Positions 28,947 to 44,801 of a stretch of 64,000 nucleotides of DNA are shown in pieces. How positions within the stretch are numbered: position 1 is the stretch's first letter; the number at the start of each line of letters is the position of its first letter. Position numbers and translations under genes: made by a program. The stretch is from Alphaproteobacteria bacterium. Its GTDB lineage: Bacteria > Pseudomonadota > Alphaproteobacteria > UBA8366 > GCA-2717185. The notes under the pieces are model-generated. The model had not been told where the DNA came from. It searched no databases and saw only the letters and a program-made list of their open reading frames with translations. The stretch lies in contig JAJFJB010000106.1 in assembly GCA_021774435.1 (NCBI GenBank), positions 1-64,000 of the forward strand, written 5' to 3'.

Positions 28947-30275
28947 CTATTCCGCCGCATGACGGGGTTGCCCGCTCGATGCCAGTGCCGATGCGAATAT
29001 CTCGACGAACTCGTCGATTTCGGACTCACCCATCGCGGTAGAGAGAGCACACATGCCCGTTTCCGCCATCAAGATGCCATTTGCATACATATAATCGATG
29101 ACGCGGGAGAGGGCGGTCGCCTGCGCTTCTGTCGCACGGGCCGATCGATAATCGATGAGCGGGACGCTGGTCATATGAATGCGCAACAGCGAGCCGTCGC
29201 CGGTGACTTGCCCGTCGATCCCGGCATTGGCAAAGGCTTGGGCGACGCCCGCTCGCGCGCGGGCGCCCAAGGCGTTCAGGCGCTCGAATTCTTCCGGCGT
29301 CAGCAATTCCATCGCCGCCGTCCCGGCGACCATGCTGATCGGATTTGCATTGAAGGTCCCGCCATGCGGCGCCAGCGGCTTACCCTGACGAGGATCAAAG
29401 ACCGCCATGACATCGGCGCTGCCCGCGACCGCCCCAATCGGGAAGCCCCCGCCGATAATTTTTGCGATGGAAGTTAGATCCGGCGTTACGCCGAGCGCGC
29501 CTTGTGCTCCGGAATAATCTAAGCGAAAGCTGATGACCTCGTCGAAGACCAGCAGCATACCGGTTTCGCTGGTCACACGGCGCAGCATCTCAAGATATTC
29601 CGTCGTCGCGGGTATCAGGCCGGCACGGTTCGGCATCGGGTCGATCAATACGCAGGCAAGCTCGTCCGCGTGCGCGCGCAGGATGCGCTCAGCTTCTTCC
29701 GTTCTATTGAAGGGAATGACAATCACGTCGTCGAGTACGCTTTTCGGCGTTCCCGCAGTATAGGCGACTGAATTCGGGTCGGCATTGCCCCAGCTTTCCG
29801 GCCCGGAATCGAGACTGACCTCGGCAAAATCGTAGCTGCCATGATAGGCACCTTCGCATTTCGCGACCTTCGGCCGGCCTGTATGGGCGCGGGCGGCCTT
29901 CAAGGCCATCATGACCGCCTCGGAGCCAGAATTGGTGAACCGGATTCGCTCAAATCCCGGGACGCGGCTGCAGAGGAGTTCGGCCAGGACGATTTCACTT
30001 TCCGTCGGCATGGCAAAACAGGTGCCGAGTTCCAGTTGTTGGCGGACCGCTTTTGCCACGACCGGATTGGCATGGCCGTGGATCATCGAGGTGTAGTTGT
30101 TGAGAAAGTCGAGATACACATTGCCATCGGCATCTGTAATTCGGCAGCCCGCCCCGGATACCGCATAAACAGGGTGCGGCGCGTGCCAGACAGTGGTTCT
30201 CGTATTGCCCCCGGGCATGACATCTAGGGCGCGGTTGAATAGTGTTTGGGACTGCGTGGTGCTGGAAGAGCTCAT
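28947..30275 (-). CDS. Class III aminotransferase, glutamate-1-semialdehyde aminomutase-like
   Basis: RALDVMPGGNTRTTVW; FTNSGSEAVMMALKAARAHTGRPKVAKCEGAYHG; LLVFDEVISFR; IAKIIGGGFPIGA. Confidence 0.9.
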   Translation of the reverse strand: MSSSSTTQSQTLFNRALDVMPGGNTRTTVWHAPHPVYAVSGAGCRITDADGNVYLDFLNNYTSMIHGHANPVVAKAVRQQLELGTCFAMPTESEIVLAELLCSRVPGFERIRFTNSGSEAVMMALKAARAHTGRPKVAKCEGAYHGSYDFAEVSLDSGPESWGNADPNSVAYTAGTPKSVLDDVIVIPFNRTEEAERILRAHADELACVLIDPMPNRAGLIPATTEYLEMLRRVTSETGMLLVFDEVISFRLDYSGAQGALGVTPDLTSIAKIIGGGFPIGAVAGSADVMAVFDPRQGKPLAPHGGTFNANPISMVAGTAAMELLTPEEFERLNALGARARAGVAQAFANAGIDGQVTGDGSLLRIHMTSVPLIDYRSARATEAQATALSRVIDYMYANGILMAETGMCALSTAMGESEIDEFVEIFASALASSGQPRHAAE

Positions 30276-30391
30276 GGCGGTGCCTCTTGATCCTCGTATC
30301 GAAAGTTGACGACGCTCACCAAGCTGCTGGCGGACGACGGCGCGCAATTGGTAGAGTACGCCTGAACTGGAAATCAGGACAAGGGTGGGTG

Positions 30392-32119
30392 ATGAGCGAC
30401 GACGCCAAAGGAATGCGCAAGGATTTGACGAGTTACGGCGACGCCGGCTTCTCACTCTATCTCCGCAAGGCTTTCATCAAGGCAATGGGATATAGCGATG
30501 ATGCCCTGGATCGCCCGATTGTCGGCATCGCGAACACGTTTAGCGGCTATAATGCATGCCACCGCAATGCGCCGGAACTGGTCGAGGCAATCAAGCGTGG
30601 CGTGATGTTGAAGGGGGGGCTGCCGGTCGAATTCCCAACCATTTCAGTCCATGAATCCTTTTCCCATCCGACTTCAATGTTCCTGCGCAATTTGATGGCG
30701 ATGGACACGGAAGAGATGATCCGCGCTCAGCCGATGGATTCGGTCGTCATGATAGGCGGCTGCGACAAGACGGTGCCCGCGCAGTTGATGGCCGCCGCGA
30801 GCGCAAATGTCCCGGCGATCTCTGTTGTGACCGGTCCGATGATGACCGGCAGTCATAAGGGGGAGCGGCTTGGTGCCTGCACGGATTGCCGCCGCTACTG
30901 GGGCATGTTCCGGGCCGGTGAAATCGACGCGCAAGAAATTGACGAGGTCGGCGGCAAGCTGGCACCGACGGCGGGCACCTGCATGGTCATGGGCACGGCC
31001 AGCACGATGGCGTGCATGACCGAGGCACTAGGCATGATGATGCCTGGCGGTGCGGCAATTCCGGCGGTTGCGGCAGACCGGTTGCGCCATGCCGAAGCGG
31101 CTGGGGCGCGGGCTGTCGCTATGGCTTCGGACGGGCCGACGCCGGCGCAGATTATGACGCCGGAAGCATTCGCGAATGCCTTTCGAGTGCTGCTTGCAAT
31201 TGGCGGATCGACAAATGGTCTGGTGCATATGACGGCGGTTGCCGGGCGGATGGGTATCAAAGTCGATCTCGAAGCGCTTGATCGCATGGGCGAAGAAACG
31301 CCGGTGTTGGTCGATCTCAAACCGTCGGGCCAGCACTACATGCAGGATTTGCAGAATGCTGGTGGGCTGGTCACGGTATTGCGCGAGTTGAAGCCGCTCC
31401 TCAATCTTGACTGCCTGACCGTGACGGGGCGGACCTTGGGCGAAGAACTCGATGCGGCACCGCCATCCTGGCCGCAGGATGTCGTGCGACCCCTGAGCGA
31501 TCCGCTATATCCGCAAGGCGGCATCGCCGTGCTGCGCGGTAATTTGGCACCGGGCGGTGCTATTGTTAAGCAGTCTGCCGCGTCCGAGAACCTCATGACG
31601 CACACCGGACGCGCGGTGGTCTTTGAAAACCAGGAGGATCTAGCCAACCGTATCGACGATCCCGATCTGGATGTCGGTCCGGACGATATCCTTGTGATGC
31701 AGAATGCGGGACCGATCGGGGCACCGGGCATGCCGGAATCGGGCTATCTGCCGATCCCCAAAAAGCTGGCGGAAGCGGGCGTGAAGGACATGCTCCGTAT
31801 GTCGGATGCGCGCATGAGCGGCACGGCCTTTGGCTCCATCGTGCTACATATTACGCCGGAGTCCGCGATTGGCGGTCCCCTGGGACTCGTCCGAACGGGG
31901 GATTCAATCAAGCTCGACGTGCCGAACCGGCGCCTTGATCTCCTGGTCGACGATGACGAACTCGAGCGCCGCCGCGCGGCCTGGACTCCGCCGGAGCCGC
32001 ACGAGGGATCCGACCGTGGTTATTTGAAGCTGTATCTCGATCACGTCCAGCAGGCGGACGAAGGGGTCGATTTCGACTTTCTGGCGAAAACCTCGGATGG
32101 CCGCAAGACGCCGGTCTAG
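30392..32119 (+). CDS. IlvD/Edd family dehydratase (dihydroxy-acid or sugar-acid dehydratase)
   Basis: GIANTFSGYNACHRNAPELVEAIKRGV; GGCDKTVPAQLMAAASANVPAI; GTCMVMGTASTMACMTEALG; LLAIGGSTNG; DARMSGTAFG. Confidence 0.93.
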   Translation: MSDDAKGMRKDLTSYGDAGFSLYLRKAFIKAMGYSDDALDRPIVGIANTFSGYNACHRNAPELVEAIKRGVMLKGGLPVEFPTISVHESFSHPTSMFLRNLMAMDTEEMIRAQPMDSVVMIGGCDKTVPAQLMAAASANVPAISVVTGPMMTGSHKGERLGACTDCRRYWGMFRAGEIDAQEIDEVGGKLAPTAGTCMVMGTASTMACMTEALGMMMPGGAAIPAVAADRLRHAEAAGARAVAMASDGPTPAQIMTPEAFANAFRVLLAIGGSTNGLVHMTAVAGRMGIKVDLEALDRMGEETPVLVDLKPSGQHYMQDLQNAGGLVTVLRELKPLLNLDCLTVTGRTLGEELDAAPPSWPQDVVRPLSDPLYPQGGIAVLRGNLAPGGAIVKQSAASENLMTHTGRAVVFENQEDLANRIDDPDLDVGPDDILVMQNAGPIGAPGMPESGYLPIPKKLAEAGVKDMLRMSDARMSGTAFGSIVLHITPESAIGGPLGLVRTGDSIKLDVPNRRLDLLVDDDELERRRAAWTPPEPHEGSDRGYLKLYLDHVQQADEGVDFDFLAKTSDGRKTPV

Positions 32120-32161
32120 CGATCTCGGGATATTATTTGAAGATCATGCTGAGATATAGTG

Positions 32162-32893
32162 TTACCGGCACTTGAATACGATAGCTTGGCCTGTCGGAAG
32201 AACGAGCGGATGCTCCGGCTTGTCAGCAAAAAATAAATCCACGGCCTTCCTTGCGCCGGGGCAGGACGTAAAACCATAATCGTCAAATACGATAAAGGCT
32301 CCAGGCACCAGGCGGGGATAAATGAATTCGCAACAATCCAGGATGGATTGAAAAATATCAACGTCAACATGCGCGAATGCGATCCGGTGATCTTCCAAGC
32401 CAGAAAATGTGTCCGGGATAAGTCCTGGATGCAACTTTGCGGCATGAGGCGCAATCTTTCCGAGGCGCTCACTTAACGCATCGGCGGAGCAGTCTGCGAA
32501 ATCTCCGTTCACATGATAATCAAGGTCCTTATTCGTTTGCGGCATACCTTCGAACGTGTCGAAAAGGTGTAATTGAATGCCTAAATTCTTAGGGTGCTCG
32601 GCAAGTAATCGGGAAAGCATCATCGCCGTACCGCCCCGATAAACCCCACATTCGTACCATTGGCCGTCTAACCCCGCCGCTTGAGCGGCAAGCGTAAAAA
32701 GAACGTGGCAGCGGTCCGCTGAAACAAGCGTATAAGGCTGAATTTCCAGATAACGCGCATGAAAGGACCCAAATCCAAGCCATGGGGAAAAAATGGAAAT
32801 CTCGCCAGTATTATAGGGGCGATAAAATTCCTTATCCGGAATTTGGTCTTCCGTCAGCCTGGCTGGCCAATGGATGTTGAAGCCCCACTCCAT
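32162..32893 (-). CDS. TylF-like class I methyltransferase
   Basis: GQWYECGVYRGGTAMMLSRLL; LHLFDTFEGMP; IAFAHVDVDIFQSILDCCEFIYPRLVPGAFIVFDDYG. Confidence 0.85.
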   Translation of the reverse strand: MEWGFNIHWPARLTEDQIPDKEFYRPYNTGEISIFSPWLGFGSFHARYLEIQPYTLVSADRCHVLFTLAAQAAGLDGQWYECGVYRGGTAMMLSRLLAEHPKNLGIQLHLFDTFEGMPQTNKDLDYHVNGDFADCSADALSERLGKIAPHAAKLHPGLIPDTFSGLEDHRIAFAHVDVDIFQSILDCCEFIYPRLVPGAFIVFDDYGFTSCPGARKAVDLFFADKPEHPLVLPTGQAIVFKCR

Positions 32894-33129
32894 TGCAGTC
32901 CCTAAGAGTTTAACGAAATTGGCTGATCGAAGAAATTCACTGATCTTGTTCAGCTTACAACTTAATAAATAAATATCTGAAAGATAATAAATTAATTCGG
33001 GCTGCTCAATAAACCGCTAGAGTAGACTATTCGTATTTGCTGAAACTGAGGAATAGTCTGGGTGCTGTCAGATAACGAGGATCATGCCAGTATAGAACGC
33101 GGTGACCCAATTGGTGAGGATCCCTATCA

Positions 33130-34275
33130 GTGAACGCGCCAAGTGATCTTTTTAGTCCCGCCCATTATGCACGGGTTCGCGAGCCGGCCGCGCGGGCGAC
33201 ACCGTTGCCGAACTGGTGTTACACGTCGCCTGAATTCTATCGCCGCGAAGTCGAACGGATCTTCATGAAGGTCTGGAATTATGTTGGCCATGCAAGCCAG
33301 ATTCCCAATCCAGGCGACTATTTCACGATTGAGATCACCGGTGCGCCGGTGATCGTCATTCGCGGCGACGATGGCGAGGTCCGGGCTTTCCACAATTCCT
33401 GTCGGCACCGCGGGTCGCGGATCGCATGGGACGAAGGGAACTGCAAGAACCTGACCTGCCCCTATCACAACTGGACCTATGCGCGGGACGGCGCGCTGAT
33501 CGCGACGCCACTGATCGATGAGGATGCCGATTTCAGGCACGCAGATTACCCACTGTTGCCGGTAACCCTGGACCGCTGGGCCGGTTTCCTGTTCGTCAAT
33601 TTCGATCCCGATTGCGCGCCGCTCGCCAACTATTTAGGCGATTTGCCGGTGAACTGTGTCTCCTACGCGCCGGGAGATCTGGTTTGCGCGCGGCGCAAAT
33701 CCTATTCGGTGAATGGGAACTGGAAGCTCTATTTCGAGAATTATAACGACTCGCTGCATATCCCCTTCGTGCATCAGGGCACGCTGGCGAAACAGAAGGT
33801 GAAGGGCCGCGCCCGGTCGACCCATGAAGAAACCAACGGGTCCTACATCACGCATTTCACAAAGCATGAGGGCAGCCGAGGCTTGTTGACGGGCGACACC
33901 GGTTTTCCGCCAATCGAGACGTTAACAGGTCGGTACGAGACGGGCACCTATTACCCCTGCCTCTATCCCACCGTCCTGTTCGGTTGGACCATCGATTGTT
34001 TGTGGATTTTTGAGATTCGTCCGACGGGACCGGAGACAATGGATCTCGTCGCCAGCTCCTTCTTCCCAAAAGACCGGTTTGCGCGGTCAGATTTTGAAGA
34101 TGTGGCGGCACGCTATTATGCCCGTGTCGATACTATTTTACCCGAAGACAATGAGGCGGTGAGCTGGCAGCAGCAGGGGCTGCGTGCGCCGGTCAACGCA
34201 GCTGCCAACTTCACCCATATGGAGACACTCTGCCACGCCTTCGACAATTGGGTGCTCGATCAAGTGCTGGATTAG
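33130..34275 (+). CDS. Rieske aromatic ring-hydroxylating oxygenase, alpha subunit-like
   Basis: Rieske motif CRHRGSRIAWDEGNCKNLTCPYHNWTY; mononuclear iron region FENYNDSLHIPFVH. Confidence 0.92.
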   Translation: MNAPSDLFSPAHYARVREPAARATPLPNWCYTSPEFYRREVERIFMKVWNYVGHASQIPNPGDYFTIEITGAPVIVIRGDDGEVRAFHNSCRHRGSRIAWDEGNCKNLTCPYHNWTYARDGALIATPLIDEDADFRHADYPLLPVTLDRWAGFLFVNFDPDCAPLANYLGDLPVNCVSYAPGDLVCARRKSYSVNGNWKLYFENYNDSLHIPFVHQGTLAKQKVKGRARSTHEETNGSYITHFTKHEGSRGLLTGDTGFPPIETLTGRYETGTYYPCLYPTVLFGWTIDCLWIFEIRPTGPETMDLVASSFFPKDRFARSDFEDVAARYYARVDTILPEDNEAVSWQQQGLRAPVNAAANFTHMETLCHAFDNWVLDQVLD

Positions 34276-34292
34276 CCACGCACTAACTATTT

Positions 34293-34382
34293 CCCCTCAC
34301 CCCATCCCTCTCCCCAAGGAAGCGGGCGCTCAAAGCACGTTTTACATAAACCCTCTCCTCGGGGAGAGGGTAGGGTGAGGGG
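34293..34382. repeat. Interspersed C/G-rich inverted repeat between convergent genes (possible bidirectional terminator)
   Basis: cccctcaccccatccctctcccc ... ggggagagggtagggtgagggg; arms nearly perfect. Confidence 0.8.
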
Positions 34383-34408
34383 ACTTTAATATTCTACAGG
34401 ACGGCATC

Positions 34409-35179
34409 CTAAAACCCGATCTGTGAGCCGCCGTCGATGTTGAGATGCTGGCCGGTGATATAGCTCGCCGTATCCGACATCAGGAAGCAGCACGGTCCGG
34501 CGACTTCGTCCGGTGTAGAGATGCGGCCCAACGGGATACTCGCCATCGTCCGATCGATGAACTTCTCGCTACGGATCACTTCTGTCATGGGCGTTTCGAC
34601 AACGCCGAAGCAGACACTGTTGATGCAGATGCCGTAGCGTGCCCATTCGCGTGCTGCGCTCATCGTGATGCCGAGCACACCGGATTTCGCCGCACCGTAA
34701 TTGATTTGTCCTATCGTACCGCGCCGTCCCGCAATCGACGAGACGTTGACGATGCGTTTCGGGCTCTCGTCGCCCTCTTTGGCGGCGTCGATCATGTGAC
34801 GTCCGACGGCCTGCAGGCAGTGGAACACGCCCGTTAAATTAACATCGATCACCGCTTGCCAGTCGGCGACCGACATCTTGTGGATCATGGCGGTCCGGAT
34901 GATACCTGCATTGTTGAAGAGCCCGTTGATCCGGCCGTGTTTTTCGACAACGGCATTGACCATCTCCTGCACGAAGCCAGGGTCTGCAACGCTGCCCGCG
35001 TGGACGGATGCGCTGCCGCCAATCAAGTCAGCGGTTTCCTGCGCGCCGTCCCCGTTGATATCGACGAGCGCCACCGTCGCGCCAAGCGAGGCAGCCTTTT
35101 GCGCGACGCCGCGGCCGACACCTTGTGCCGCGCCAGTGACGATGATGACGCGGTCTTCGAGGCTCATTGGATTGTCCAT
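34409..35179 (-). CDS. Short-chain dehydrogenase/reductase
   Basis: VIIVTGAAQGVGRGVAQKAASLG; NNAGIIRT; YGAAKSGVLGITMSAAREWARYGICINSVCFG; ITGQHLNIDGG. Confidence 0.93.
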   Translation of the reverse strand: MDNPMSLEDRVIIVTGAAQGVGRGVAQKAASLGATVALVDINGDGAQETADLIGGSASVHAGSVADPGFVQEMVNAVVEKHGRINGLFNNAGIIRTAMIHKMSVADWQAVIDVNLTGVFHCLQAVGRHMIDAAKEGDESPKRIVNVSSIAGRRGTIGQINYGAAKSGVLGITMSAAREWARYGICINSVCFGVVETPMTEVIRSEKFIDRTMASIPLGRISTPDEVAGPCCFLMSDTASYITGQHLNIDGGSQIGF

Positions 35180-35266
35180 GGTAAGAGTCCTTATTCTCTT
35201 GCTGATAATTCGGTTGCGCACCCTATGATGCCGTTGCCTGTCGAATCAATCTTTCGGATTAAGCTC

Positions 35267-36214
35267 ATGCCCATTCATCCGCAATGCCAAGCCATTCTCG
35301 ACGCCGCCGCCAATGCTGACGGTCCGACCATCTTCGATACGAGAGACCCGGCGGAAGCGCGCCGTCTCTACAGCGCTTCGACTGAGATCCTGGTACCGTC
35401 GGCACCAAAGCTTCGGTCGGTTGCTGATCAAGTTTTGCCCGGTGTGGATAAGGATGTACCGGTGCGCATCTATACGCCTGATGTAGAGGTTGAGCCGACT
35501 GAATTACCGGTGTTGGTTTTCTTGCATGGTGGAGGCTGGGTGTTCGGTGATCTCGATACGCACGACGGCATGTGCCGGATGCTGGCGCAGGGTGCTGGAT
35601 GCCTGATCGTTTCGGTCGACTACCGGCTCGCGCCGGAACATAAATTTCCCGCGGCTTTGGATGATAGCCTCGCCGTCCTCGACTGGACGGCCGCGAATGC
35701 GGCCAGTATTGGCGGCGACCCGGCGCGGATCGCGATCGGCGGCGACAGTGCGGGCGGGAATATCGCCGCCGCCGTCTGTCAGGTCGCGCGCGACAAGGGC
35801 GGCCCTTCTATCGCCTTTCAGCTTTTGATCTATCCGGCCCTCGATTTTACGGCCGATATGGTTTCGCCGCGCAGCAACGCGGCTGGGTATGGCCTGTCCG
35901 ATATCGCCATCGAATGGATGCGCGACTGTTACCTCACCAACCCCTTCGACTCCGCGGACCCACGTGCCTCGCCGGCGATGGCAAGAGACCTCGCGGGTCT
36001 GCCACCCGCCTTCATCCAGACCGCCGAATTCGACCCGTTGCACGACGAAGGCAAAGCCTATGCCGATGCATTGCGCGCCGCGGGCAACACGGCCATCCAC
36101 ATCAACTATCCCGGCATGATCCACGGTTTCATGCGCATGGGGGCGCTCATCGACGATGCGGCTCTTGGGATCAACGATGCAGTTAAGGCGCTGCAGGGAA
36201 TATTTGAGAAATGA
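35267..36214 (+). CDS. Alpha/beta hydrolase, HSL-type esterase/lipase
   Basis: VFLHGGGWVFGDLDTHDG; GGDSAGGNIAAAV; DPLHDEGKAYADAL; start uncertain (35225 also possible). Confidence 0.9.
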   Translation: MPIHPQCQAILDAAANADGPTIFDTRDPAEARRLYSASTEILVPSAPKLRSVADQVLPGVDKDVPVRIYTPDVEVEPTELPVLVFLHGGGWVFGDLDTHDGMCRMLAQGAGCLIVSVDYRLAPEHKFPAALDDSLAVLDWTAANAASIGGDPARIAIGGDSAGGNIAAAVCQVARDKGGPSIAFQLLIYPALDFTADMVSPRSNAAGYGLSDIAIEWMRDCYLTNPFDSADPRASPAMARDLAGLPPAFIQTAEFDPLHDEGKAYADALRAAGNTAIHINYPGMIHGFMRMGALIDDAALGINDAVKALQGIFEK

Positions 36215-36285
36215 GCGTGGCGATGTGAGCACAATGCATTTGTGCCATGATTGACGATCTAAATTTGTTGGGGAAGGAGCCAACC

Positions 36286-37407
36286 ATGTCCGTTATTTCC
36301 TATGATAATCTTCCCTATCCCGTAAGGGATGATCTGGCAGCGGCCCAAACCCGCTGCTGGGACCATCTTGCGCGTGCGGGAACTTGGTATACCGGAGCCG
36401 AGCGGATTGCGATCGCGGCGGAGGCTCGGAACGCTCGTGATTGTGCCTATTGCCAGGTTCAGAAGGACGCGCTGTCACCGAATGCTCTTGCGGGTGCGCA
36501 TACTAGCCTCGGTGCGTTGCGTGAGGTGGAAATTGACGCCGTTCATCGAATCGCCTCGGATCCGGCAAGGCTCAGCAAAGCCTGGTATGAAGGGCATGCT
36601 GCAGACGGGCTCGAGGGCGAGCCTTATATCGAGCTTGCTAGCATCGTGGCGATGGTGATGATCGTCGATCAGTTCTCCTTCGGGACGGGATGGCAAGATC
36701 ACCCGTTGCCGGAACCGATCGCCGGGACGCCGACCGGGTATCGCTCTCCTGGCGCGAAGGTCGAAGCGGCCTGGGTTCCCATCGTCGAACCGCGGGACAT
36801 GACGGAAAGCGACGGCGATCTCTATCCGAACGGCCGTGTCGGCTATATTCAGCGGGCGCTTTCGGCCGTGCCGGACTCGAAGCGCGCCTATTGGGACCTC
36901 GCCAGTTGCCACTATCTGCAAATGGAAGATATCCCTGATTGGGACACGGACGCCCGCGCGATCTCACGCCCGCAGATCGAATTGATCGCGGGAAGGGTGT
37001 CCGCGCTGCACCAGTGCCTCTACTGAACGACGGCGCATGCCTATATGCTCCGTGAGAGCAATCAAATCAACAACGCCGATTTCGACCTGACAGAATTGAC
37101 CGCCGGTGTCACCGGTGCGGGCGATATCCGTGCTGCCAAATCGCTGGGCGACTTCGCGGAAGCCGTGGTAAAGCGCGACACTGCATCGGTCGCCGAATAT
37201 CGCAATACACTGCTTTCCGAGTTGGGAACTGACGGGTTAGTCGATGCCGCGGCTGTTGCTGCGGCCTTCCACGGTTATGTCCGCCTCGCGGATGCGACCG
37301 GTATCCCTTATGAGCATGCAGGCTTTGGCACCGATACGACGGAATTGCGCACGGCAATTGGAATCGACAAGTTTTATGCGGTAGGGCTAGCGGATCGGGG
37401 TTCGTAA
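36286..37407 (+). CDS. Candidate selenoprotein: two-domain AhpD/carboxymuconolactone decarboxylase-like, in-frame UGA at 37024-37026
   Basis: First domain EARNARDCAYC; second domain ELIAGRVSALHQCLY-U-TTAHAYMLRES (C-x2-U-x3-H). ORFs ending at 37026 and starting at 37045 are in the same frame with no stop other than this TGA up to 37407. AAGGAG SD before ATG 36286. Confidence 0.82.
37030..37060 (+). promoter_or_regulatory. SECIS-like stem-loops downstream of UGA
   Basis: (a) ACGG-c-GCAT-gcctat-ATGC-t-CCGT (37030-37053); (b) TGCTC-cgtga-GAGCA (37046-37060), loop begins 24 nt after UGA with G at position 2; mutually exclusive. Confidence 0.5.
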
Positions 37408-37439
37408 CACTCCACTGGCACTTGAGATCAACGTTCCGC

Positions 37440-38921
37440 TCACCGCATCACGAATGGGTTCGACATGGGTTCGTTTGAGGTGTTCATCCAGATGGTTTTG
37501 GGCCGAGTATAATCGTACATCGCCTGGAAACCGCTTTCGCGGCCGTAACCGGAGCCTTTGATGCCACCGAATTCGGCGATGGGTGACACCGCGCGATAGG
37601 TGTTCACCCAGACGATACCGGCGCGCACTGCCTTGGCCATGCGCAGGGAGCGGGCGCTGTCCTGGGTGAAGATACCGGCGGCAAGTCCGTGCACCGTGTC
37701 GTTCGCCAAGGCGATCACTTCTTCTTCGTCCTTGAAGCGCAGGACGCTCAGCACCGGGCCGAAGAGTTCGGTGTCCATGATACGCAAATCCTGGCGCGGG
37801 CAGGCGATGATCGTCGGTTCGTAGTAATTGCCTTCGAGCCCCTGCGGCCGCTTGCCGCCGCACAGCAATTGGCCGCCTTCGCTTTGCGCGTGCGCGACCT
37901 CACGTTCGATTTTTTCCATCTGACCCGTGGTGCAGAGCGGGCCCATCTGGGTTTCTTCCAGCAGCGGGTCGCCGATGCGGATCTCGCGCGCCATTGACGT
38001 CATCTTGTCGAGGAATTCGTCGGCAATGGCCTCCTGCAGATAGAGGCGCGATCCGGCGACGCAGCTTTGCCCCGTCGCGCCAAAGATTCCGGCGATGGAG
38101 CCATTGACCGCGCTTTCGATATTGGCGTCGTCGAAGACAATGAAGGGTGATTTCCCGCCGAGTTCCAGCGATACTTCGGCGAAGTTTTCGGCCGAGTTGT
38201 AGAGTACCTGCCGCGCCGCGCCCGGCCCGCCGGTAAATGAAATTCGCGCCACGAGCGGGTGCGACGTGAGCGCTTTGCCGCACGGGTCACCGTGACCGGA
38301 GACGATGTTGACGACACCAGGTGGAAAACCTGCTTCCTCGACAAGGCGGCCAAAATCCAGCATCGCCGCCGACGCGTGTTCGGACGCTTTGAGGACGACC
38401 GTGTTGCCCGCCGCCAGAGCCGGGCCGATTTTGACGGCGACGAGAAACAGCTGTGAATTCCACGGCACGATGGCGGCGACAACGCCCAGCGGCTCGCGGT
38501 CGGTAAAGACGAAGAGATCGGGCTTGTCGATGGGCAGGGTCTCGCCGCTGATCTTATCGGCACAGCCGGCATAAAATTGAAAGAACTCAGCGATATATTT
38601 TGCCTGCCAACGGGTTTCCTTCAGCATTTTTCCGGTATCGATGGTTTCCGTCCGGCCCAGATCTTCGGATTCTTCCGCCAGTAAGTCCGCAAGACGGCGC
38701 AGGCACCGACCACGCTCCGTAGGCGTCATCATCGCCCAGGGCCCCGTCGTGAAGGCGCGGTGCGCGGCCCGCACAGCTTTGTCGACATCCTGGGTGGTTG
38801 CTTCGGGAACCCGCGACCAGACCTCGCCAGTTGCGGGATTAACGCCGTCAAAGAGCGCGCCGTCCGAGGCACCGACCCATTCGCCGTCGATGAGCATCCG
38901 GTAATCGCGGATATTCGTCAT
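37440..38921 (-). CDS. NAD(P)-dependent aldehyde dehydrogenase
   Basis: VVAAIVPWNSQLF; VSLELGGKSPFIVFDDAN; FGATGQSCVAGSRLYLQ. Confidence 0.95.
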   Translation of the reverse strand: MTNIRDYRMLIDGEWVGASDGALFDGVNPATGEVWSRVPEATTQDVDKAVRAAHRAFTTGPWAMMTPTERGRCLRRLADLLAEESEDLGRTETIDTGKMLKETRWQAKYIAEFFQFYAGCADKISGETLPIDKPDLFVFTDREPLGVVAAIVPWNSQLFLVAVKIGPALAAGNTVVLKASEHASAAMLDFGRLVEEAGFPPGVVNIVSGHGDPCGKALTSHPLVARISFTGGPGAARQVLYNSAENFAEVSLELGGKSPFIVFDDANIESAVNGSIAGIFGATGQSCVAGSRLYLQEAIADEFLDKMTSMAREIRIGDPLLEETQMGPLCTTGQMEKIEREVAHAQSEGGQLLCGGKRPQGLEGNYYEPTIIACPRQDLRIMDTELFGPVLSVLRFKDEEEVIALANDTVHGLAAGIFTQDSARSLRMAKAVRAGIVWVNTYRAVSPIAEFGGIKGSGYGRESGFQAMYDYTRPKTIWMNTSNEPMSNPFVMR

Positions 38922-38936
38922 TGGGCACGCGTCCCT

Positions 38937-39569
38937 TTAGCTGTTTTTCTTACGCCAATCCTCGATGTATTCGATTACGGCATCGGCACTGGAGATGTCC
39001 GCATAGCGACGGCCCACGTCACGGAGATTGTCGTTATGCGGCCCTTCGTCATGATCGCCGACACAATCCTCGGGAATAATGGTCCGGAAACCATGACTGA
39101 AGCTATCAATCGTAGAGGCGCGAATGCAGCCGCTGGTGACGCAACCGGTCATTATCACCGTATCGACCCGCTCCTTGGCGAAGAAGGAGGCCACGGGTGT
39201 CTCGAACAGAATGGACGGGCCGCTTTTGCAGATGCCCATATCGTAGGACTCGTCATAGATGCGCGGGTCGAGCTCCGTACCGGGGGCGCCGTGGATGAAT
39301 TGTTCACGCACGGCCTGAACCTTCCAGTGCGGCATCTCGCGTTCACTCTTGTAGCTGGTCCAGCAGTTGGCGATGGGCACACCGGCGCGGCGGGCGACAT
39401 CGAGCAGACGCGCAGAGTTCTGTACCCCGCGCTCAATTAGTGGCGCGCCGCCGAGCGGAAAATTTGGATCCGTAAAGGCGGTCATGTAATCGACGACGAG
39501 GATGCCGGGCTTCTCGCCAAACCCAATCTCTCCGCTGTTGTAGGTTCGCTCTTCGTAGATATCCGCCAT
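38937..39569 (-). CDS. Isochorismatase-family hydrolase (N-carbamoylsarcosine amidase/maleamate amidase-like)
   Basis: GILVVDYMTAFTDPNFPLGG; VIMTGCVTSGCIRASTIDSFSHGFRTIIPEDCVGD. Confidence 0.9.
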   Translation of the reverse strand: MADIYEERTYNSGEIGFGEKPGILVVDYMTAFTDPNFPLGGAPLIERGVQNSARLLDVARRAGVPIANCWTSYKSEREMPHWKVQAVREQFIHGAPGTELDPRIYDESYDMGICKSGPSILFETPVASFFAKERVDTVIMTGCVTSGCIRASTIDSFSHGFRTIIPEDCVGDHDEGPHNDNLRDVGRRYADISSADAVIEYIEDWRKKNS

Positions 39570-39672
39570 GTTCCCTGCTCCCTAGCGCACAAAATGAATG
39601 CCGCGAGGCGCGCGGCCGTGCCTCGTGGATTATAAGAATGCCTCGGCATTCGTCGTTACGGAAGGGTTTTCG

Positions 39673-40632
39673 GTGGAATACACGGATTTGGGGAACACTG
39701 GCTTAAGGGTCAGTGTCGCGGGACTTGGCTGTGGCGGCGGTAGCCGGCTTGGCATGAACCGCGGTTTGAGTACGGCAGAGTCGGCCAAGCTGGTCAGGAT
39801 TGCGATGGATCTCGGTGTCAATTATCTCGACACGGCAGCAGTCTATGGCACTGAAGGTATTGTTGGCGATGCAATCAAGTCGGTAAAGCGAGACGAGATC
39901 TATGTCGCGACAAAAGCGACGATCCGCAAGGGCATGGAACTGCTGCCCGTTGAGGATGTGCTCGCCAGCCTGGACAATTCACTGCGCACATTGAACACGG
40001 ACTACGTCGATGTTTTCCAGTTCCATGCGGTGCCGCCGGCGCTCTATGACCGTATCCGCAAGGAATATGCGCCGGCCCTGCTGCGTGAGAAGGAAAAGGG
40101 TAAGCTCCGCCATCTCGGCCTGACGGAGACGCCGCCGAACGATCCCGCAGGCGAGATGCTGATCAAAGCGTCGCGAGACCCGGTCTGGGAAGTCATTATG
40201 CTGGGCTTTCACATGATGCATCAGGTTGCCCGGCGAAATTGCTTTCCGGGTACGTTGGCGAATGGCATCGGCACTGTACTGATGTTCGTTGTGCGCAGCA
40301 TCTTCAGCATCCCGGGCCGGCTGGAAGAGACAATGAAGACACTTGCTGCAGAGGACAAGGTACCGGGCTGGCTTGGCGAGTCCGACAACCCACTGGGGTT
40401 CCTCATACATGAAGGCGGTGCTGAAAGCGTGATCGACGCCGCATACCGATACGCGCGGCATGAGCCAGGTACGGATGTCATTCTGTTCGGTACCGGTGTC
40501 GAAGAGCATCTGCGCACCAATCTCGCATCGATCCTACGGCCACCTTTGCCGGCGGAAGATGTGGCGAAACTGGAAGAATTATTCGGATACCTCGAGGGGG
40601 TCGGGCTCGACCTGCCGGAAAAACGGTCCTGA
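39673..40632 (+). CDS. Aldo/keto reductase family protein
   Basis: VEYTDLGNTGLRVSVAGLGCGG; AMDLGVNYLDTAAVYGTEGIVGDAIK; GTG start inferred. Confidence 0.85.
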   Translation: MEYTDLGNTGLRVSVAGLGCGGGSRLGMNRGLSTAESAKLVRIAMDLGVNYLDTAAVYGTEGIVGDAIKSVKRDEIYVATKATIRKGMELLPVEDVLASLDNSLRTLNTDYVDVFQFHAVPPALYDRIRKEYAPALLREKEKGKLRHLGLTETPPNDPAGEMLIKASRDPVWEVIMLGFHMMHQVARRNCFPGTLANGIGTVLMFVVRSIFSIPGRLEETMKTLAAEDKVPGWLGESDNPLGFLIHEGGAESVIDAAYRYARHEPGTDVILFGTGVEEHLRTNLASILRPPLPAEDVAKLEELFGYLEGVGLDLPEKRS

Positions 40633-40657
40633 ACGTATATTAGGGGAGAATAATAAA

Positions 40658-41500
40658 ATGAAACTGATCACTTACAGTGACGGTAAAGGCGAGACATACG
40701 GCGTTGCGACCGAAGATGGTGTCATCAATGTCGGGCGCGGCCTGTATTACGCGAATTTACGCGCTGTGCTTGAAGCGAATGCTTTGGATGAAGTGCGCGA
40801 ATTTGTGGAAAGCCATGATGTGGATGCAGCACTCGATTCAGTCACGCTGCTGCCGCCGATCCAGAACCCGGACAAGATCATCATGGTCGGCTTGAACTAC
40901 GCGACCCATGTCGCAGAAGGCGGGCGCGATACACCGGAGTATCCGATGTTGTTCCCACGCTACGCCAACTCGCAGGTAGGGCATGGACAAGCAATGATCC
41001 GGCCGAAGGCGTCTGAACGGCTCGATTTCGAAGGCGAGTTGGCGTTCGTTGTGGGCAAAGCGGGCCGCCACGTTGCCAAAGAAAACGCTTACGATCATGT
41101 CGCCGGTTACGCCTGCTATAACGATGGCAGCGTGCGCGATTGGCAGCGCCATACTGGCCAGTTCATGCCAGGAAAGAATTTCATGGGGACGGGCGCGTTC
41201 GGGCCTTGGCTGGTGACGACCGACGATATTCCCGATCCCGAAGTCATGTCCCTCGTCACGCGGCTCAATGGCGAGGAGATGCAACGTGCGACGATAGACG
41301 ATCTGATCTTCGGTGTGCCGGAACTGATGGCCTATATCACCACCTTCACGGAACTTGTTCCGGGCGACGTGGTGGTCACCGGTACGACCGGCGGCGTCGG
41401 GGCCTATCGGACCCCGCCGGTCTGGATGAAGGACGGCGACACGGTCGAAATCGATATTTCCGGTATCGGCGTATTGCGCAACCCCATCGTTAACGAATAG
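40658..41500 (+). CDS. Fumarylacetoacetate hydrolase family protein
   Basis: KIIMVGLNYATHVAE; DFEGELAFVVGKAGRHVAKENAYDHVAGYACYNDGSVRDWQRHTGQFMPGKNF; AGGGGAGAA SD. Confidence 0.93.
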   Translation: MKLITYSDGKGETYGVATEDGVINVGRGLYYANLRAVLEANALDEVREFVESHDVDAALDSVTLLPPIQNPDKIIMVGLNYATHVAEGGRDTPEYPMLFPRYANSQVGHGQAMIRPKASERLDFEGELAFVVGKAGRHVAKENAYDHVAGYACYNDGSVRDWQRHTGQFMPGKNFMGTGAFGPWLVTTDDIPDPEVMSLVTRLNGEEMQRATIDDLIFGVPELMAYITTFTELVPGDVVVTGTTGGVGAYRTPPVWMKDGDTVEIDISGIGVLRNPIVNE

Positions 41501-41515
41501 TCGGGGTCGCGCATC

Positions 41516-42997
41516 ATGGAGTCACCAACAACCCTTCCCGAGATCTGGGATGAAGAAGCGGATCTCGTCGTCGTCGGGTTTGGCGCTGCCGGATTCGCGG
41601 CGTCAGTAACGGCCTATGAACTTGGCGCCGATGTACTGATCCTCGAGAAGGCACCCGAAGGCAAGGAGGGAGGCAATACAAAGGTTGCCGGCCAAGGTTA
41701 TTTGAACACGTCTTCTGAGGAAAGCGCGATTGCCTATTTGACCGCGCTGTGTGGCATTTACAAAGTACCGGAAGAGATGGTCCGTGTCTGGGCGCACGAG
41801 ATGTGCCTCAACAATGATTGGCTCAGGAGCCTGGGTGCCGATCCGCAGGAGCACCAGCATCCGCCGGAAGGGATCGAGTTTCCCGAACTGCCGGGGTCGG
41901 ACTGCGTACATAAATTCCATGATGGTCCAACCTACGGCTATTCGCTGACCTGGAACCGCTTTGAACGTCTCGTCAAGGAACGGCCGATCCGCATCGCCTA
42001 TGAAACGCCGGGGCGGAGCTTGATCCAGAACGGAGTGACCGGCGAAATACTGGGCGTTCGTGCCGAGCGCGACTGCAAGACAATTGCCGTCAAGGCACGC
42101 AAGGCGGTTATTCTCACTTGTGGCGGATTTGAAAACAATCAGGAAATGATCCGCGATTATCTGCCGGATATTCCGTACTGCTATACATCCGGATCACCCT
42201 ACAATGAAGGCGATGGTATCTCGATGGCCTTGGCCGTCGGCGCCGATCTCTGGCATATGAACAACTTCGCCGGGCCTACTATGGCGTTCAAGGCGCCGGA
42301 AGTACCGACATCCTTTTCGATGCAGGCGTTCCATTTCAGTAAGGAGATGGCGGGCGGCGCGATTGCTGTCGGACCCGATGCAAAACGCTTCACCGATGAA
42401 AAATACAAGAACCGGCACGGCAAGGTACCGCTGCACGGCACCTGGAAGAAGATGCCAACCCCGTGCCCGATGCAGATGATTTTCGATCATACGCATATGA
42501 CGGCAGGACCCTTGTGGGACAAGGCGCCGAAACATGGCTGGACGCAGTTGGTAGAAAAATATCCCTGGAGTGACGACAACGCTGCCGAACTGGCGAAGGG
42601 CTGGATCAAGCAGGCCGACACGTTGGAAGAACTCGCTGAGATCGTCAATCTCGACCCACAAGCGCTCGCGGGGACTGTCGCGCGGTGGAATGAAGGGTGC
42701 GCCGCGGGGAGCGATCCCGAATATGGCCGTTCGCGGATGCTCAACCCGATCGAGCAAGCGCCGTTCTACGCGATAGAGATGTCGCCCTCGATGCTGAACA
42801 CTCAAGGCGGTCCGCGTCGAAACGAGAAAGCGCAAATTGTGCGCCCCGGCGGCGCACCAATTCCGCGGCTTTACAGCGCGGGCGAATTGGGATCGATATA
42901 CAGCTATCTCTATCAAGGGACGGGCAATATTGGTGAATGCCTCGTCTTTGGCCGCATCTCCGCGCGCAACGCCATGGCGGAACTGTCCTGGGAGTAA
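41516..42997 (+). CDS. FAD-dependent oxidoreductase (fumarate reductase/ketosteroid dehydrogenase/tricarballylate dehydrogenase-like)
   Basis: ADLVVVGFGAAGFAASVTAYELGADVLILEKA; AVILTCGGFENN; LYSAGELGSIYSYLYQGTGNIGECLVFGRISARNA. Confidence 0.9.
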   Translation: MESPTTLPEIWDEEADLVVVGFGAAGFAASVTAYELGADVLILEKAPEGKEGGNTKVAGQGYLNTSSEESAIAYLTALCGIYKVPEEMVRVWAHEMCLNNDWLRSLGADPQEHQHPPEGIEFPELPGSDCVHKFHDGPTYGYSLTWNRFERLVKERPIRIAYETPGRSLIQNGVTGEILGVRAERDCKTIAVKARKAVILTCGGFENNQEMIRDYLPDIPYCYTSGSPYNEGDGISMALAVGADLWHMNNFAGPTMAFKAPEVPTSFSMQAFHFSKEMAGGAIAVGPDAKRFTDEKYKNRHGKVPLHGTWKKMPTPCPMQMIFDHTHMTAGPLWDKAPKHGWTQLVEKYPWSDDNAAELAKGWIKQADTLEELAEIVNLDPQALAGTVARWNEGCAAGSDPEYGRSRMLNPIEQAPFYAIEMSPSMLNTQGGPRRNEKAQIVRPGGAPIPRLYSAGELGSIYSYLYQGTGNIGECLVFGRISARNAMAELSWE

Positions 42998-43001
42998 GCC
43001 T

Positions 43002-43724
43002 ATGACCCGACATTTCGGTATGTTGATTCCTTCGACCAACACGACGGTTGAGATCGAATACACGCGGCTGTTGCCGCCAGGCCTGCAAGCACATTATGCG
43101 CGCCTTGGCAAAGCCGGCGACACACCGTTCTCGCCGAGCCAGGGCACAGATCTCGCCTATCAGTCGAAGATGCTGGGTAACGCAAAGGTCGAGGTGATCG
43201 CCTTGACCCAGACTTCCGCCAGTCTGTTTGACGACGATTACGATGCCACGGCGAAGCGGCAAATGAGCGCAGGCGCGGGTGTTTCGGCGATAACATCGGC
43301 GGAAGCCATCGGCGAGGCGATCCAGGCGTTGGGCGCGACGCGAATCGCGTTGGTGTCTCCGTACTCCGAAGAGGTGATTGGCCGGGCGAAGCGCTACTAC
43401 GAAATGCGTTATGGGTTGAACGTCGTGGCAACGGAAGCCTTTGGGGCAACGGACTCCTACGCTATCGGAGGCTTGTCCGCGGAGAATGCCACTGATTCCT
43501 TCAAGCGCATCGACCAGCCGGAGGTCGAAGTGCTTGTCGTACCGGGCGGTAATTTTCCGACGATGAAGTTTGTTCCCAATTGGGAGCAGCAATTCGGCAA
43601 ACCCGTTATTACGACGAACCAAGCTGTCATCTGGGCGGTGATGATGGCGCTGGGTATTTCGGAACCTTTGTTAGGCCTGGGAAGGCTTTTAGCCGAGTTG
43701 CCAGGCAATGCTGCGGTCTCTTAG
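43002..43724 (+). CDS. Maleate isomerase/Asp-Glu racemase superfamily protein lacking cysteines
   Basis: FGMLIPSTNTTVEIEY; VEVIALTQTSASLF; TRIALVSPYSEEVIGRAKRYYE; no Cys in the translation. Confidence 0.78.
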   Translation: MTRHFGMLIPSTNTTVEIEYTRLLPPGLQAHYARLGKAGDTPFSPSQGTDLAYQSKMLGNAKVEVIALTQTSASLFDDDYDATAKRQMSAGAGVSAITSAEAIGEAIQALGATRIALVSPYSEEVIGRAKRYYEMRYGLNVVATEAFGATDSYAIGGLSAENATDSFKRIDQPEVEVLVVPGGNFPTMKFVPNWEQQFGKPVITTNQAVIWAVMMALGISEPLLGLGRLLAELPGNAAVS

Positions 43725-43727
43725 TTT

Positions 43728-44783
43728 CTAAGAGACGAGAATTCCAATTTTTCCAACATGATTTTTGTTGGCAAACGCTGTTTGCGCCGCTTGCATATTT
43801 TTTAACGAAAAGGTTTCCGCGATGAGGGGGCGTATCTCGTTGCGTTCGATATAGCGGATGACATCACGCAAAATGTTGTCAGGCTGAAATGTCGTGCCGA
43901 ATAAGGTCAAGTCCCGCAGGTACAATGTGCGAATATCGAATTCGACAATCGGACCTGCAATGGCGCCCGCCGTGACGTACCGGCCGCCACGGTGAAGCGA
44001 ATCGATCAATTCCCCCCAACGCGAGCCCGCCACAAGATCCAGGACAACGTCATAAGCGCTTTTGTCGATCGCATCGCTGCGAAGGCGCGTCTCGTCGGCA
44101 CCCAGTTTGAGGATCGCATCCCGTTTGTCTGCGCTTGTTATGGCGGTCACATGCGCGCCTCGGCGTTTTGCCAATTGAACTGCCGCACTGCCGACGCCCC
44201 CGGACGCGCCCGTAATAAGGATGTGTTCATCGCGTAATTCGACCCGCTGCAGCATTCCTTCGGCCGTTGTGTAGGAACAGGGAATGGACGCCAATTCGAC
44301 ATCGCTCCAGGCTGAATTTACCGGGAGCGCATCATTGGCAAAGGTTTTCGTGTACTCGGCAAAGGCGCCGTCACATTCGGAACCGAAGGTCCAGGTTGCG
44401 AAGGGCACGCCCTTAGCCCCAGTCTTCTGCAGCGCCCGGACCAGGATGCGTTCGCCGATGCGCGGCGAACTGACGCCTGCTCCGACGGCGACAATCACGC
44501 CACAGCAATCCGCACCCTGAATTCTCGGAAACTGGATCGCCTCCCCGGACCAGCCGCCTTCTTTCGTGTCCGCTTCGGCGAAACCGTCGGTAGCGCCAGC
44601 CTCTGTGCTGCCGCGCACCGATTTTGAATACCAGGCAATGCGCGTGTTGATGCCCGTGTTGTTTATCGCGGACGCGCCGACTTTAATAAGTACCTCGCTG
44701 GGTTCCGGGGTGGGGACAGGCAAATCTTCTCGCCAGACCAGTTTGTCGAGCCCACCATGGCCGGTCAGAACAACGCCTTTCAT
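43728..44783 (-). CDS. MDR-type alcohol dehydrogenase/quinone oxidoreductase
   Basis: MKGVVLTGHGGLDKLVWREDLPVPTPEPSEVLIKVGASAIN; ILITGASGGVGSAAVQLAKRRGA. Confidence 0.92.
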   Translation of the reverse strand: MKGVVLTGHGGLDKLVWREDLPVPTPEPSEVLIKVGASAINNTGINTRIAWYSKSVRGSTEAGATDGFAEADTKEGGWSGEAIQFPRIQGADCCGVIVAVGAGVSSPRIGERILVRALQKTGAKGVPFATWTFGSECDGAFAEYTKTFANDALPVNSAWSDVELASIPCSYTTAEGMLQRVELRDEHILITGASGGVGSAAVQLAKRRGAHVTAITSADKRDAILKLGADETRLRSDAIDKSAYDVVLDLVAGSRWGELIDSLHRGGRYVTAGAIAGPIVEFDIRTLYLRDLTLFGTTFQPDNILRDVIRYIERNEIRPLIAETFSLKNMQAAQTAFANKNHVGKIGILVS

Positions 44784-44801
44784 CAACGATCCCATCGTAT
44801 C

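Follow-up and report, generated by a model that had tools for sequence, protein, structure and literature searches.

A probable selenoprotein gene of the AhpD-related family NF041238 in an alphaproteobacterial contig

The family of AhpD-related proteins treated here first appeared in 2005 in the Sargasso Sea selenoproteome, under the name 'hypothetical protein 1' and with a CxxU motif; a few homologues of it with Cys were also counted in that survey (PMC1088965). A review of 2026 (PMC13188914) includes the family under NF041238, and NCBIfam models it as alkylhydroperoxidase-related (seleno)protein (AhpD_rel_CFYUT); a literature search on the motif name CFYUT found no papers. The AhpD of M. tuberculosis acts via Glu118, Cys130, His132, Cys133 and His137, to which correspond Glu36, Cys48, Tyr50, Cys51 and His55 in PA0269 of P. 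aeruginosa (PMC3141380). Sestrin2 is a pseudo-symmetric pair of AhpD-like domains in which the amino-terminal half is active and carries a single Cys (PMC4674687).

The window (the whole stretch of 64,000 nucleotides that was analysed) carries on its plus strand the frame 36286-37407 which, when TGA is translated as a residue, codes for 373 amino acids, of which one, at codon 247, is U, and ends at TAA. The first-pass annotation had described one frame broken by a TGA alone, and this is confirmed. The annotated halves of the gene end at 37026 and restart at the ATG at 37045, respectively; an annotation made without the NF041238 model would show two broken ORFs here. The read-through protein matches NF041238 along positions 1-356 of the 357 of the model (E=2.7e-131, 438.1 bits), over its full length and well over the curated cut-off of 175 bits, in agreement with the earlier statement that AhpD-like C-x-x-U proteins are an established selenoprotein family. 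It shares with NF041238 the C-x-x-U motif and the architecture; it differs by a CLYUT motif in place of the CFYUT of the family name and is otherwise an ordinary member. The features of the locus are the following:

36286..37407, plus strand: predicted AhpD-related selenoprotein gene of family NF041238, 373 codons plus TAA (from the read-through translation and the NCBIfam match).
36274..36279, plus strand: Shine-Dalgarno-like AAGGAG, 6 nt 5' of the ATG at 36286 (from the sequence).
36442..36546, plus strand: C53-x2-C56 ... H72 ... H87 set, codons 53-87 (conserved together in members).
36979..37038, plus strand: putative active-site stretch E232-x11-C244-x-Y246-U247-x3-H251 (from conservation and AhpD spacing).
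37024..37026, plus strand: predicted UGA selenocysteine codon, residue 247 (TGA column in 49/49 class members and in the best 80 of 431 GTDB relatives).
37046..37060, plus strand: putative bacterial SECIS hairpin UGCUC-CGUGA-GAGCA with its apical loop at 37051-37055 (from pairing, codon bias and the published bSECIS model).

The open frame by itself is weak evidence for selenocysteine. In this GC-rich window, a lone stop flanked by at least 200 open codons on its 5' side and at least 100 on its 3' side is seen four times for TGA, five times for TAG and twice for TAA, the frame 36286-37407 included, so that an isolated TGA in an otherwise long open frame is by itself no rarity there. Such chance frames leave the case for a selenoprotein to rest on homology rather than on the open frame. 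They also lend some weight to the reading of the TGA as a real stop, due either to a pseudogene or to a sequencing error in a Cys codon, with the downstream ORF as a remnant; a draft metagenome-type assembly may indeed contain errors. This reading is highly improbable because the same TGA column recurs in relatives, as detailed below, which in effect refutes it, and because the carboxyl-terminal part is conserved past the TGA and the codons of the hairpin are constrained. A scan of the window's other TGA-joined frames leaves 37024 as the only site that combines a C-x-x-U motif, long open flanks and such a hairpin.

The survey of 385 genomes of the same class identified 49 genes over the NF041238 cut-off in 27 genomes. 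Each of the 49 carries exactly one TGA, at a single alignment column. The product of the gene under study is 29-49% identical to the 48 others. A single-protein query of species-genome contigs returned no relatives and an alignment query of 84,980 species genomes gave 431, the best 80 of which come mainly from alpha-, gamma- and deltaproteobacterial metagenome assemblies and have TGA at the same column (80/80). Homologues at the UGA column, for which the first-pass annotation had anticipated Cys or Sec, are thus TGA in 49/49 class members and in the best 80 of 431 relatives. One TGA each is also found in 10/10 over-cut-off genes of a phylum sample centred on Thermoanaerobaculia and in 41/41 of a sample centred on Deltaproteobacteria. 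No Cys form within NF041238 was found in the class survey, the best 80 of 431 relatives or these two phylum samples; AhpD proteins outside NF041238 have Cys at the Sec column. A phylum-level sample yielded no further family members, genome G760 was the only family carrier in a sample of its own class, and tblastn of plasmids and phages gave no match to the family protein. The family range comprises Alpha-, Gamma- and 'Deltaproteobacteria' together with genomes related to Thermoanaerobaculia. The closest relative (L086), from an independent assembly, is 77% identical and collinear, with neighbours 74-92% identical.

The hairpin downstream of the UGA has five pairs and a CGUGN loop and starts 19 nt past that codon. 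Across 117 distinct sequences, the stretch 22-36 nt downstream of the U of UGA reads UGCUC-CGUGN-GAGCR, with its five base pairs intact in 105, 111, 116, 116 and 117 of them, respectively; a double change from C-G to U-A is found in the stem of three sequences. Bacterial SECIS elements are modelled with a small apical loop, a G in its first two positions and a distance of 16-37 nt from the UGA (PMC13188914). The CGUGA loop, with G second, followed by U, and placed 24 nt after the UGA, fits this model. Since the hairpin is embedded in the coding sequence, unusual codons are forced at its stem and loop: CTC is used there in 97% of cases against 24% elsewhere in the same genes, CGT in 89% against 12% and AGC in 91% against 28% (binomial p 1e-44 to 1e-78, values that are inflated by relatedness). 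A coding-embedded SECIS with fixed codons provides a clean marker for finding the family.

These data bear also on the possibility that UGA stands for a different amino acid, by a reassigned code (e.g., Trp) or by leaky read-through. Stop-free translation alone would suit any sense reading, but several family genes use TGA as their ordinary terminal stop, the column corresponds to the second Cys in the C-x-x-C motif of AhpD, the UGA is followed by a SECIS hairpin and the genome codes for a tRNA-Sec with anticodon UCA. Such a decoding is therefore given next to no credence. The reading of codon 247 as selenocysteine is in line with the presence in the source genome of all the genes that the first-pass annotation had proposed to look for: selA (E=6.7e-173), selB (in two pieces, at the ends of contigs C500 and C151), selD (cut by a contig end) and tRNA-Sec (selC), the latter identified by both Rfam and ARAGORN. 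SelA is over cut-off in 56/385 class genomes, all 27 family carriers being among those 56, and in 20/25 other family carriers; its lack in the remaining five may reflect incompleteness as these carriers are metagenome assemblies. Because of the machinery, the conserved TGA of the homologues and the SECIS, which strongly support the initial proposal of UGA as Sec in a C-x-x-U motif of AhpD type, the gene very probably codes for a selenoprotein of NF041238 with Sec at UGA 247.

The source assembly consists of 527 contigs with an estimated contamination of 6.3%. The tetranucleotide correlation with the window is 0.95-0.97 for the contigs carrying selA, selB and tRNA-Sec and 0.82 for the selD contig; the former thus match the window in composition and the latter departs from it somewhat. 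It is unlikely that contamination or a binning accident brought in the Sec genes, since the collinear, 77% identical L086 shares its genome with a selA that is 84% identical to that of the source genome. Note that selD (L081, G000:C325:1-450, minus strand) has itself an in-frame TGA (GGG-U-GCK) followed by the hairpin-like AGCACCGTCGGTGCT; its product is a probable Sec-containing SelD.

The carboxyl-terminal half has the features of an AhpD active site. Residues E232, C244, U247 and H251 are invariant in 121 members and Y246 is present in 116/117 sequences. Their spacing (E-x11-C-x-Y-U-x3-H) is identical to that in the proton relay of AhpD, Sec taking the place of the second Cys, as had been recognized from the position of the TGA. 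Pfam gives for the read-through protein a sub-threshold CMD match limited to residues 225-257, and the protein scores below the cut-offs of both TIGR01926 and PF02627. The profile match to AhpD 6k40 has E=4.4e-15. An AlphaFold2 model (pLDDT 92.2, pTM 0.93) displays confidently the all-helical AhpD fold, with fold-match E-values of only about 1e-3. Its best match is 6k40 (TM-score on target 0.76) and the best PDB matches are all AhpD-like (6k40, 2prr; E ~1e-3 to 1e-2, TM-score near 0.75), while the viral fold library returned noise only. The half resembles AhpD and peroxidase-related proteins (6k40, 2prr, 3c1l, 2oyo; TIGR01926; PF02627) both in fold and in E-x11-C-x-Y/H-C-x3-H spacing. In contrast to them, the gene product has Sec for the second Cys and ~165 extra amino-terminal residues with the C-C-H-H set. 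By analogy, the carboxyl-terminal half is inferred to be an AhpD-fold thiol/selenol oxidoreductase. SelB would deliver Sec-tRNA at UGA 247. Sec247, activated by Glu232, Tyr246 and His251, would attack a hydroperoxide or a disulfide, Cys244 would resolve the product as a Se-S bond and a cellular dithiol would re-reduce this bond. Peroxide or disulfide chemistry of this kind is, on comparison with AhpD, somewhat favoured.

The genes around support a different view to some extent. The region 30242-44795 of the window has a catabolic appearance, coding for a Rieske ring hydroxylase, a SDR, an esterase and an aldehyde dehydrogenase around the gene as well as for an isochorismatase, an aldo/keto reductase, a FAA hydrolase and a FAD dehydrogenase; a large part of this region is collinear with the L086 locus. 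The company of catabolic genes such as those of the Rieske oxygenase, esterase, aldehyde dehydrogenase and FAA hydrolase, together with the fact that the debrominase Bmp8 also has the AhpD fold (6ohi and 6ohj are among the fold matches), makes it reasonably conceivable, if not favoured, that the selenoprotein has a role other than peroxide reduction, either as a disulfide oxidoreductase or adaptor or as an enzyme of CMD or dehalogenase type with an organic substrate. Against this role, neighbours vary between family members and the full set of AhpD relay residues is kept. No operon partner or neighbourhood is conserved across the family, the largest recurrent cluster comprising 9/81 loci from apparently close relatives.

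The first-pass annotation had seen a two-domain AhpD/CMD protein with an ordinary CxxC motif in its amino-terminal half. The domain assignment holds for the carboxyl-terminal half, whereas an AhpD/CMD domain at the amino terminus is weakly supported by the sequence: Pfam has no match to this half, its profile finds no significant solved relative in the PDB, and the alignment of the two halves with their Cys motifs in register (hhalign probability 20%, E=0.001) indicates a weak sequence relation. Single-sequence folding of the half alone reaches a pLDDT of 36. Rather than an ordinary redox motif, the CxxC is part of the co-conserved set C53/C56/H72/H87, which is present as such in 113/121 distinct members and in 124/141 of a wider set. 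In 14 relatives all four residues are missing together; these relatives fall into two groups, each with full support, whose joining has low support (0.21), so that the set was lost or gained once or twice. Loci L170-L177, L046-L048 and L071-L073 code for shorter proteins that lack the entire set; the U, the residues of the relay and a hairpin resembling the SECIS persist in them. L093 and L095 show a partly altered set (R-C-N-H and C-D-H-H, respectively), these being real variants or sequencing errors. The C-C-H-H set is a testable feature for which no description was found in the literature consulted, which did not extend to the primary description of the NCBIfam model.

Sestrin2 (PDB 5dj4) has two AhpD-like halves per chain and is a weak full-length fold match to the model (TM-score 0.45), which fits a duplicated fold without proving it. 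The likeness shown is one of fold, and the arrangement differs in that here the carboxyl-terminal half has the intact motif, with Sec. The amino-terminal half probably forms a diverged domain that pairs with the carboxyl-terminal one and has a separate C-C-H-H site, metal-binding or redox, which would be dispensable in some lineages. The further proposal of an essentially Sec-only, bacterial Sestrin-like tandem AhpD, whose carboxyl-terminal C-x-x-U would cooperate with a distinct amino-terminal C-C-H-H site (a metal site or a second redox centre) lost as a unit in some lineages, is speculative and rather doubtful. The first-pass annotation had considered that the two-part form deserves description; this is not borne out, the 373-residue form being the normal NF041238 architecture, already reported in 2005 (PMC1088965). 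As the family was reported then and is modelled as NF041238, the gene is an ordinary, well-supported addition to it and no discovery; with it, a selenoprotein family that is still uncharacterised gains a member on firm grounds.

A second family gene is found in the same assembly (L079, G000:C460:5110-6156, minus strand), ~41% identical, which shares the TGA and the SECIS. Because its contig is GC-richer (62%), this second gene may be either a paralogue or a contaminant. At eight loci (L055, L067, L068, L074, L075, L076, L077 and L115) no more than a few kb separate the family gene from one or more of selA, selB and selD, a linkage to sel genes that could be a recurrent feature.
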